Shown here in pieces: positions 2,730-5,274 of a stretch of DNA of 7,604 nucleotides. Both the position numbers and the translations under genes were made by a program. This DNA is from Methanobacteriota archaeon (GTDB lineage: Archaea; Thermoplasmatota; Thermoplasmata; RBG-16-68-12). Position 1 is the stretch's first letter. Each line of letters opens with the position of its first letter. The DNA is taken from contig VBLV01000172.1 in NCBI GenBank assembly GCA_005879045.1, positions 1 to 7,604 of the forward strand. Reading direction: 5' to 3'. A model generated the notes under the pieces. That model ran no database searches and was not told where the DNA came from. It saw only the letters and a program-made list of their open reading frames with translations.

Positions 2730-2761
2730 GGTGATTTGTGCCGGAATCGCGGTGCCCCAAA

Positions 2762-2769
2762 CTTTCAAA
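2762..2769 (+). promoter_or_regulatory. TATA-like box for the pirin transcription unit
   Basis: CTTTCAAA is centred about 30 nt before the ATG at 2795. This matches a leaderless archaeal promoter and supports that start over the upstream GTG at 2738, which would place the TATA-like element inside the coding sequence. Confidence 0.45.
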
Positions 2770-2794
2770 CTCCACCGACGCGTTCGAATCTCCG

Positions 2795-3526
2795 ATGATC
2801 GCGGTTCGGGATCCGGCGTCGATCCATCAGGTCGACATTCCGATCGACGGGGGCACCTGTCACGGTCGCTGGCATTTCTCCTTCGACCGCTACTTCGACC
2901 CGCGGTGGATGCGCTTCGGCACGCTGCGAGTCTTCAACGATGATACGCTGACTCCCGGAGCCGTATGGCCGTTGCACCCGCACCGGGAAATCGAAGTGGT
3001 CACGTACTGCGCGGGCGGCGAGTTCCGCCACGCGGACGAGAACGGCGAAGGCGGCGTCCTGAAGGAAGGCTGGGTCCAGCACACGACGGTCGGCCAGGGC
3101 ATGTGGCACTCCGAGATCAACAACCGCAAGGACGCTCCCATGCGGTTCGTCCAGATGTGGTTCCTCCCGTCGGCGCCGGGCCTCGCACCCTCCGTCGAGC
3201 AAAGGGCGGTGGAAAAAGCGGACCGGACGAACCGGCTCCTCCCGCTCGTGTCGAACGAAGACCGAGACGGCCTGACGATCCTCTCGGATGCCCGCGTGTT
3301 CTCCTCGTTCCTGGAGGCAGGTAAGAAGATCTCCCATCCTCTCGAAGAGCATCGAGGAGCCTACCTGTACGTCCTCAGCGGTGGGCCCGTGAGAGTGAAC
3401 GGCGCGACGGTGTTGCCTCTCGGTGCCGCGACGCTCTCGGACGCACCGGAACTGAGTGTCCGATCCGACGCCGATGCGGAACTCCTCCTCGCGGACGTCC
3501 TTCTGGTCGAGGAACCTTCTTCATGA
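2795..3526 (+). CDS. Pirin family bicupin protein
   Basis: This 243-residue protein has the standard bacterial/archaeal pirin length. It carries the family's opening RWHFSFDRYFDPRWMRFGTL (25-44), then HPHREIEVVTY (61-71) and GQGMWHSEI (100-108). H61, H63, H105 and E107 match the four metal ligands of the N-terminal cupin of human pirin and YhhW, so a metal centre (Fe, Ni or similar) is expected. The C-terminal cupin ends in LYVLSGGPVRVNGATVLPLGAA. Relatives include quercetinase-type dioxygenases and transcription cofactors; the substrate cannot be read from sequence. ATG 2795 is chosen over GTG 2738 because homologues begin just before the metal-cupin and a TATA-like box sits at about -30. 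The stop codon overlaps the next gene's ATG as ATGA, so translation of the two proteins is probably coupled. Confidence 0.93.
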   Translation: MIAVRDPASIHQVDIPIDGGTCHGRWHFSFDRYFDPRWMRFGTLRVFNDDTLTPGAVWPLHPHREIEVVTYCAGGEFRHADENGEGGVLKEGWVQHTTVGQGMWHSEINNRKDAPMRFVQMWFLPSAPGLAPSVEQRAVEKADRTNRLLPLVSNEDRDGLTILSDARVFSSFLEAGKKISHPLEEHRGAYLYVLSGGPVRVNGATVLPLGAATLSDAPELSVRSDADAELLLADVLLVEEPSS

Positions 3527-4188
3527 AAATCGAACACTGTGAGTTCCCGGACGACCTCCTCTACGACCCGGAGGGACTCGTCTGGGCTCGCCCCCTCGTG
3601 TCCGGGGGCCTAATCGTCGGGATTACCAGCATCCTCGCGGCACTCGCGGGGCCTGTCATGAAGGTCGCAGCCAAACCGCTCGGAGTCCCGTACGCCCGAG
3701 GCGCCACGGTCGGGCTCCTGGAGAGCGGGAAGTATTTCGGTCCGATCCGCGCGCCCGCCAGCGGGGTCCTTCGGGAGGTCAACGCCGACGTCCTCGCGAA
3801 GCCTCGGACGTTGACCGACGCCTCCTACGAAGGCGGATGGTTTGCTCGCCTGCAACCGACGAATTTCGAGGAAGAACGTCGGGGCCTGCGGTCGGCCACC
3901 GACGCGCGTCTGTTCCTCTCGAAACAGATTGCGGCCTTGCGGGTTCGATGCTTCGCCGCGTTCCCCGATCACGAGATGTTCGAGATCGGCATCGAGTGTT
4001 CGGCCGTCCTCGCCAAGCTGAACGAGCTGCTCACGCGGATCGAGGTCGGGGCCGTCGTCCACCTCGTGACGGATGATCCGACGTCGCCGATCGAGATGGT
4101 CCGGTGGTCGGACCAGACCGGACAGCCGGTCATCGATGAACGGAAGGAAGGGAACCTGTTCCACTTCCTGGTCCGGAAGGTGACGTGA
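3523..4188 (+). CDS. GcvH-like lipoyl domain fused to a TusA-like sulfur-carrier domain
   Basis: This 221-residue protein appears to have two domains. Residues about 14-115 follow glycine-cleavage H protein: the start LYDPEGLVWARP, then GLIVGIT (29-35), a helical turn, GATVGLLESGKYFGPIRAPASG (60-81), REVNADVLAKP (84-94) and YEGGWFARL (102-110). K70 in ESGK aligns with the lipoylated lysine of the H-protein motif ESVK. Residues about 150-219 follow TusA/SirA: FEIGIECSAVLAKLNELLTR, then VGAVVHLVTDDPTSPIEM, a helix, and a final strand HFLVRK. C159 aligns with the active cysteine of TusA, but the usual CPxP reads CSAV. H proteins carry intermediates on a lipoyl arm; TusA passes persulfide sulfur. 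GcvH-like proteins work beside TusA in sHdr-type sulfur oxidation, so a sulfur-transfer role is plausible but inferred. No glycine cleavage, Hdr-like or lipoate-assembly gene lies nearby. Confidence 0.82.
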   Translation: MKIEHCEFPDDLLYDPEGLVWARPLVSGGLIVGITSILAALAGPVMKVAAKPLGVPYARGATVGLLESGKYFGPIRAPASGVLREVNADVLAKPRTLTDASYEGGWFARLQPTNFEEERRGLRSATDARLFLSKQIAALRVRCFAAFPDHEMFEIGIECSAVLAKLNELLTRIEVGAVVHLVTDDPTSPIEMVRWSDQTGQPVIDERKEGNLFHFLVRKVT

Positions 4189-4254: not shown

Positions 4255-5274
4255 TCATCCCATGGGCCCCGGGAAAAGGACCGCGCGTCCGACGATTTTC
4301 CCGTCCCGGAGATCGTTGAGGACCTCAGCGGCGTCTGCAAGCGGAGCTTTTCGCGTGACGACGGGGCGGAGACGACCCGCCTCGGCGAGCGAGATCGCCC
4401 GAGCGAAGTCGGCCATCGTCGAGGAGTACGCGCCGAGGTACGCTTTCCCTCCGTCCACGAGGTCGTTTGCCGTGACTTGGACGGCCTCCGACCCGGGGGC
4501 GACCGCGACAAACCGGCCTCCGGGACCCAGTAGCGAACGTCCCAGGTCGAATGTCCCCTTCGTCCCGACGAAATCAATGGCCACATCGGCGCCCGCATCG
4601 TTTGCGAAATCTCGAAACGCAGCACCTGCCTCGTCCGGACCCACCGCGCGGTCGGCACCGCAATCGAGGGCTGCTTTCCGTGCCTCCACCCTCGGCTCGA
4701 TTGCGAAAACGCGGGCATTGTACGCCTTCGAGACCTGGATGGCAGAGAGGCCGACACCGCCCGCCCCGATGATGACCACCATATCCTCTTCCTCCGCCTG
4801 CCCGAAGGCCACGACGGCCCGGTAGGCGGTGGCGCCGCTGCATCCGAGGGGAGCGGCCAGCGCCAGATCGAAGTTCGGGGGCAGCGGCAGGATCGTGGTT
4901 TGCTTCGCGACGACAAACTCCGCGTAGCCGCCGGGCGCATCGAAGCCCAGGGTGGTCCCCTGTTCGCAGAGGTTCGTCTTCTGGCGGCGGCATTGCCGGC
5001 ACCGACCGCACGGCTGCTCGAAATGCACTCCAACGAGGTCGCCGACCTTGGCGGTGTATACATCGTCGCCGATCTTCGCGATTCGGCCCGCCATCTCGTG
5101 ACCAGGGATGAGGGGCTCGTGTTCCCCGGCTTTGACCTCATCGAGGAGGTGGAGGTCCGTCCGGCAGACCCCCGCTGCGAGGACCTGCACCAGGACGTCC
5201 TCAGCGCCCGGTTGCGGGTTCGGGAGCTGAACGACCTTGATGGCGCCGCCCGACTCGAACCGAACCGCGCGCAT
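4255..5274 (-). CDS. Zinc-dependent, probably NAD-linked alcohol dehydrogenase (medium-chain family)
   Basis: This 339-residue protein is typical of medium-chain dehydrogenases that interconvert alcohols and aldehydes or ketones. Catalytic zinc ligands are C37 (GVCRTD), H59-E60 (PGHEMAG) and C145 (LGCSGATAYRA). A structural zinc lobe is formed by C89, C92, C95 and C103. The spacing agrees with the well-studied Sulfolobus enzyme. The nucleotide-binding motif is IIGAGGVGLSA (168-178), and the acidic E193 at the end of the next strand (VFAIEPR) favours NAD(H) over NADP(H). Both zinc sites are complete, so the enzyme should be active; the substrate is unknown. The start ATG at 5274 gives the standard N-terminus MRAVRFE. 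Only weak TATA-like sequence (ACAAACC, about 35 nt upstream) precedes it. The gene is convergent with the GcvH-TusA gene and divergent from the cupredoxin gene. Confidence 0.95.
   Translation of the reverse strand: MRAVRFESGGAIKVVQLPNPQPGAEDVLVQVLAAGVCRTDLHLLDEVKAGEHEPLIPGHEMAGRIAKIGDDVYTAKVGDLVGVHFEQPCGRCRQCRRQKTNLCEQGTTLGFDAPGGYAEFVVAKQTTILPLPPNFDLALAAPLGCSGATAYRAVVAFGQAEEEDMVVIIGAGGVGLSAIQVSKAYNARVFAIEPRVEARKAALDCGADRAVGPDEAGAAFRDFANDAGADVAIDFVGTKGTFDLGRSLLGPGGRFVAVAPGSEAVQVTANDLVDGGKAYLGAYSSTMADFARAISLAEAGRLRPVVTRKAPLADAAEVLNDLRDGKIVGRAVLFPGPMG

Follow-up and report, generated by a model that had tools for sequence, protein, structure and literature searches.

What might a single protein chain do that carries both a lipoyl-type domain and a TusA-type sulfur-carrier domain? 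The question is raised by a gene for a protein of 221 amino acids (3523..4188, forward strand) in the window, the whole stretch of 7,604 nucleotides of archaeal DNA that was analysed here. A sequence-only reading had recognised the two domains in one chain, and their presence is borne out by matches of the open reading frame to the Pfam models GCV_H and TusA and by an AF2 model (pLDDT 96.9, pTM 0.87). Residues 6-135 make up the H-protein-fold domain (3538..3927, forward strand) and residues 144-220 the TusA-fold domain (3952..4182, forward strand). The AF2 model is the second of two and was built on a more diverse alignment, the first being weak around residues 141-160. The order of the lipoyl-type and TusA-type domains is conserved among the relatives, and a chance or artefactual join of the two domains was rejected. 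It is confirmed that domains of LbpA type and TusA type, which are separate proteins elsewhere, are joined in one archaeal protein. In a set of 153 fused members, non-redundant at 80%, three cysteines, C6, C143 and C159, are each invariant (153/153), and residues 141-221 represent the more constrained part of the protein.

The N-terminal domain had been labelled as GcvH-type, a label that has to be replaced by LbpA-type. In a quick tree of 69 rows, the 30 fused rows formed one clade (SH-aLRT 99), including the long-branched row L085, and this clade nested within a 56-row clade of LbpA-type proteins (SH-aLRT 98), apart from the five GcvH proteins. GcvH proper was also rejected because the protein scored 33.4 bits with the NCBIfam gcvH equivalog model, far below the cut-off of 115.85 bits. 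A separate, ordinary GcvH with its lysine in the motif ESVKA is encoded elsewhere in the same genome (L079). A further difference from GcvH consists of two extra cysteines, C6 (3538..3540, forward strand) and C143 (3949..3951, forward strand). As stated in passages of Cao et al. (2018, PMC6067878), LbpA proteins contain two conserved cysteines that are absent from GcvH, some archaea excepted. The columns of C6 and C143 were occupied by cysteine in all 28 stand-alone LbpA-type proteins and in all 41 fused proteins aligned with two MAFFT modes, with the C-terminal LbpA cysteine now located within the linker ahead of the TusA domain. The nested position of the fused clade and the shared cysteine columns indicate that the N-terminal half is derived from LbpA, and the topology is consistent with one origin of the fusion in this sample of 69 rows. 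The fusion thus shares with the LbpA of sulfur-oxidising sHdr systems the fold, an N-terminal C-x-F-P-like motif and both cysteines, but it differs in that a TusA domain has been joined on, that the lipoyl lysine is gone in 98 of the 153 members, and that it mostly occurs in genomes without an sHdr match.

A scan of named genomes yielded 39 loci, comprising archaeal fusions and more distant stand-alone proteins, the latter from Thioalkalivibrio, Arenicellales, Actinomycetes, Chloroflexi, Zoogloea/Thauera-type bacteria and one Thermoplasmata archaeon; two matches in Brevundimonas look like chance. Short extra LbpA-like proteins of 124-133 amino acids with the motif ES[EDG]KWV (L074, L075, L077 and L081) were observed near archaeal sHdr clusters and formed a clade of their own in the 69-row tree (support 100). 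The LbpA-like proteins of the Zoogloea/Thauera type (L029, L032, L033, L036, L037, L038) contain the motif EAGKTVFP and are without the C-terminal cysteine; the gene is directly followed by a DsrE-like frame (supported by Pfam for L029), and no match to sHdr genes was found in the fetched stretches around them.

According to Cao et al. (2018, PMC6067878), the lipoyl lysine is strictly conserved in LbpA; from the same paper and from PMC10332631, LbpA is lipoylated and essential in the sHdr system. The lysine was present in all 28 stand-alone LbpA-type proteins compared here, and it is retained in the protein of the window as K70 (3730..3732, forward strand). In the fused family, this position is mostly arginine (R in 89, K in 55 and T in 5 of the 153 members, with N, V, I and H once each), and it ranks only 81st of 221 in conservation. 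Arginine is found even in L003, which is 93% identical to the window protein. On a quick tree of 121 rows, built without the column of position 70, at least 19 changes between lysine and other residues were needed, of which at least eight are forced by well-supported branches. Three fusions (L142, L143 and L144) from genomes of 2.8-3.4 Mb, each consisting of one long contig, have N, I and V at this position, which excludes lipoylation of the residue in these proteins. We observed that these three fusions also contain a longer stretch ahead of the last strand. Since K or R occupies position 70 in 144 of 153 members, a positive charge may be selected.

These data bear on the suggestion that lipoate on K70 forms a swinging arm and acts together with a persulfide on C159 within one chain. 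The protein in the window may itself be lipoylated, to judge from its lysine, and 55 of the 153 members have lysine at this position. A search of 20 fusion genomes identified a ligase of the LplA type in 19, the exception being the incomplete genome of the window. However, such a ligase would also serve the ordinary GcvH of the genome, and the repeated replacement of the lysine, also in a relative with 93% identity, argues against a dithiolane arm as the general mechanism of the family, which we consider quite improbable. The expectation that both K70 and C159 would be conserved among close homologs held for the cysteine and failed for the lysine.

The C-terminal half has the TusA fold with its cysteine. 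C159 (3997..3999, forward strand) aligns with C19 of 1dcj and occupies the place of the sulfur-carrying residue, as the sequence-only reading had proposed. The Pfam TusA model scored 27.9 bits for the whole window protein (gathering threshold 28.6) and 30.3 bits in the genome search, and it matched 103 of 106 diverse members at E<=0.01. The degenerate CPxP motif noted in the window, where the cysteine is followed by S-A-V and not by P-x-P, turned out to be a trait of the entire family, with no proline at position 160 or 162 in any of the 153 members; a redundant set of 120 relatives contained a single P at 162. The fusion is thereby set apart from the TusA/SirA/YeeD carriers (PF01206), both by the loss of these prolines and by its covalent link to an LbpA-type domain.

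In E. coli, TusA supplies sulfur for the thiolation of tRNA, for the molybdenum cofactor or for the assembly of Fe-S clusters. The main rival to a role in sulfur relay is that the TusA half of the fusion feeds one of these biosynthetic pathways, with the LbpA half only as a docking surface. Of 20 fusion genomes chosen for a search, nine, including the incomplete genome of the window, yielded no TusA-family match other than the fusion, and the fusion occurs in archaea where the sHdr search found none, both of which are compatible with such a role. Yet the CPxP motif is lost in all members, the LbpA half contains further cysteines that are invariant, and the spread of the fusion is patchy (98 of 400 genomes in the class of the window and 59 of 151 in a second order), unlike that of a housekeeping thiolation factor. 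We regard a biosynthetic donor as unlikely.

LbpA and TusA had been described in the sequence-only reading as separate proteins encoded together in sHdr clusters, and we observed this arrangement in a bacterial locus from Arenicellales (L025), where lbpA (7992-8432) is directly followed by a separate tusA (8490-8711). By Pfam matches, on which the sHdr gene names used for this locus were assigned here as labels, the neighborhood encodes two CCG-domain proteins (HdrB-type), two dicluster ferredoxins (HdrC-type), a flavoprotein (HdrA-type), DsrE and TusA. Relatives of all five of these gene types were identified in L024, L026 and L031, and of some of them in L023 and L027. The two parts are thus the same as in the fusion and in the same order, but in L025 they are two genes beside sHdr-type genes, and both the lysine and a CPLP motif have been kept.

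An sHdr neighborhood had likewise been expected for the fusion, and this expectation was not borne out in the family of the window, where 18 of 22 genomes carry the fusion and none of the 22 contained a match to the sHdrB1 query. Membership in an sHdr operon was rejected for the window itself, as no sHdr-type gene was among its Pfam matches. In the class as a whole, strong matches to sHdrB1 were obtained in 28 of 400 genomes, with three weak matches set aside and a positive control for the query. The fusion is also present in 26 of these 28 genomes, so a link to sHdr may exist in the families concerned. Conversely, no sHdrB1 match was found in 72 of the 98 fusion genomes of the class, many of which are incomplete assemblies, nor in any of 12 fusion genomes from the second order, to which the Nitrososphaeraceae archaeon of L017 belongs. 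Each of the nine sHdr loci examined keeps its own stand-alone LbpA.

In most of the genomes surveyed, the fusion has as a neighbor a gene for a two-domain rhodanese with two PF00581 stretches and a CRIGERSS loop, for which the best NCBIfam model is 3-mercaptopyruvate sulfurtransferase, below its cut-off (139.6 versus 250 bits). Among 400 genomes of the class, 98 contained the fusion (102 copies, some of them partial) and 103 contained the rhodanese, counted as present at E<=1e-40. Both were found in 94 genomes, the fusion only in 4 and the rhodanese only in 9, such that the rhodanese was present in 94 of 98 fusion genomes as compared to 9 of the 302 others (Fisher p 3e-75, uncorrected for kinship; the counts are not independent, because relatives inherit both genes). 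A rhodanese of this one family was located within 2 kb of 80 of the 102 fusion copies, in all 80 cases in convergent orientation and with a median gap of 66 nt. In the second order, where 59 of 151 genomes had a match reaching into both fusion domains, the rhodanese was within 2 kb in 45 of the 59 (42 convergent, 3 upstream on the same strand), farther off on the same contig in 7 and absent from the contig in 7. Convergent genes do not form one transcript, and the adjacency could therefore reflect co-transfer only.

Less favorable to a link with the rhodanese is the genus of the window: of 17 fusion copies, two had the rhodanese within 2 kb, two at distances of 8 and 45 kb, and 12 on another contig, while no match was found in one genome. 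The genome of the window, whose assembly is 69% complete, encodes it on another contig (G000:C197), with 85% identity to the query. We compared 16 loci, namely L017, L018, L020 and L021 together with 12 that had been fetched for having fusion and rhodanese on one contig, so recovery of the rhodanese in 16 of 16 is partly due to the choice of the 12. Antisense shadow frames aside, no other gene family recurred in more than four of the 16 loci. Genes that we take to encode eIF1/SUI1-like, ABC-transporter and IscA-like proteins stay close to the locus in family f15 but not elsewhere, and a third conserved partner was accordingly rejected.

AmoA was identified in 28 of the 59 fusion genomes of the second order. 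The ammonia-oxidising hosts, the rhodanese partner and record names that refer to soil profiles would all suit a protein that senses or scavenges reactive sulfur such as thiosulfate or polysulfide, in which the cysteines form di- or trisulfides and detoxification proceeds with the rhodanese. However, no DNA-binding or regulatory domain was among the Pfam matches, and no third partner is kept across families, which makes this role very unlikely in our view. As a separate observation, amoA was located 15.8-22.7 kb from the fusion, always on its upstream side, in all 13 second-order genomes in which the two share a contig (G404, G410, G421, G432, G441, G443, G451, G457, G465, G481, G503, G533 and G551); this arrangement could be plain synteny.

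That most relatives are without the lipoyl lysine and that all have three cysteines points to a likely hand-over of sulfur from cysteine to cysteine. We give about an even chance to the explanation that the fusion is a cysteine-based sulfur carrier fed by the partner rhodanese, for which lipoate at position 70 is probably dispensable. The rhodanese would load sulfane sulfur onto C159 as a persulfide, the LbpA cysteines C143 in the linker and C6 would receive or present the sulfur from C159, and it would then be passed on to some acceptor, in what we infer to be this order of transfer. Lipoate would be an ancestral and now optional feature, which members with K70, the window protein included, would not need. 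The proposed chemistry has partial precedent. In an archaeal TusA, thiosulfate groups supplied by tetrathionate or DsrE3A become bound to the cysteine (PMC4175335), and YeeD, a relative of TusA, has a cysteine that can bear several sulfur adducts (PMC11073785). Unlike tetrathionate, neither thiosulfate nor polysulfide reacted directly with the archaeal TusA (PMC4175335), and direct loading of sulfur onto C159 is hence not a given.

More broadly, and more tentatively, the rhodanese and the LbpA-TusA chain may constitute a sulfur-traffic module, where the fold of a lipoyl carrier has become a persulfide relay of three cysteines that works without lipoate, independent of the sHdr enzyme behind its parts, across Thermoplasmata and Nitrososphaeria-type archaea, including ammonia oxidisers; we would put this at somewhat under even. 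LbpA is thought to need lipoate, but the fusion has kept the fold and the two cysteines and has lost the lipoate site many times. The family thus offers a natural experiment on the roles of the LbpA cysteines versus lipoate in sulfur carrying, and soil archaea and ammonia oxidisers gain a conserved, rhodanese-linked candidate for a sulfur carrier. What is new relative to the LbpA and TusA carriers is the architecture, the altered active sites and the partner. No description of an LbpA-TusA fusion was found in the literature searched, which was covered as the openings of abstracts, with subscription papers and preprints mostly outside it. The words "fusion" and "fused" are absent from the main text of PMC6067878, and TusA is absent from the main text of PMC10332631. 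Where relatives have database names, these are mostly "glycine cleavage system H protein", and the automatic names of some relatives at JGI already list both domains.

Within the window, the fusion gene is preceded by a gene of the pirin/quercetinase type (2738..3526, forward strand; Pfam Pirin, E 6.4e-22), the stop codon of which overlaps the start of the fusion in the sequence ATGA. The same overlap was seen in L003, L004, L005 and L039, and a gap of about 10 bases in L007. Pirin was rejected as a partner, since the loci that have it all belong to the close genus. Downstream and convergent to the fusion is a gene for a zinc alcohol dehydrogenase (4255..5274, reverse strand; Pfam ADH_N, E 2.2e-27), a relative of which sits between the fusion and the rhodanese in L014 and L016. 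The window also contains genes for a MOSC-domain protein (519-1052) and a RidA-type protein (1077-1481), both on the reverse strand, of which the MOSC gene is common to seven further loci of the close genus.
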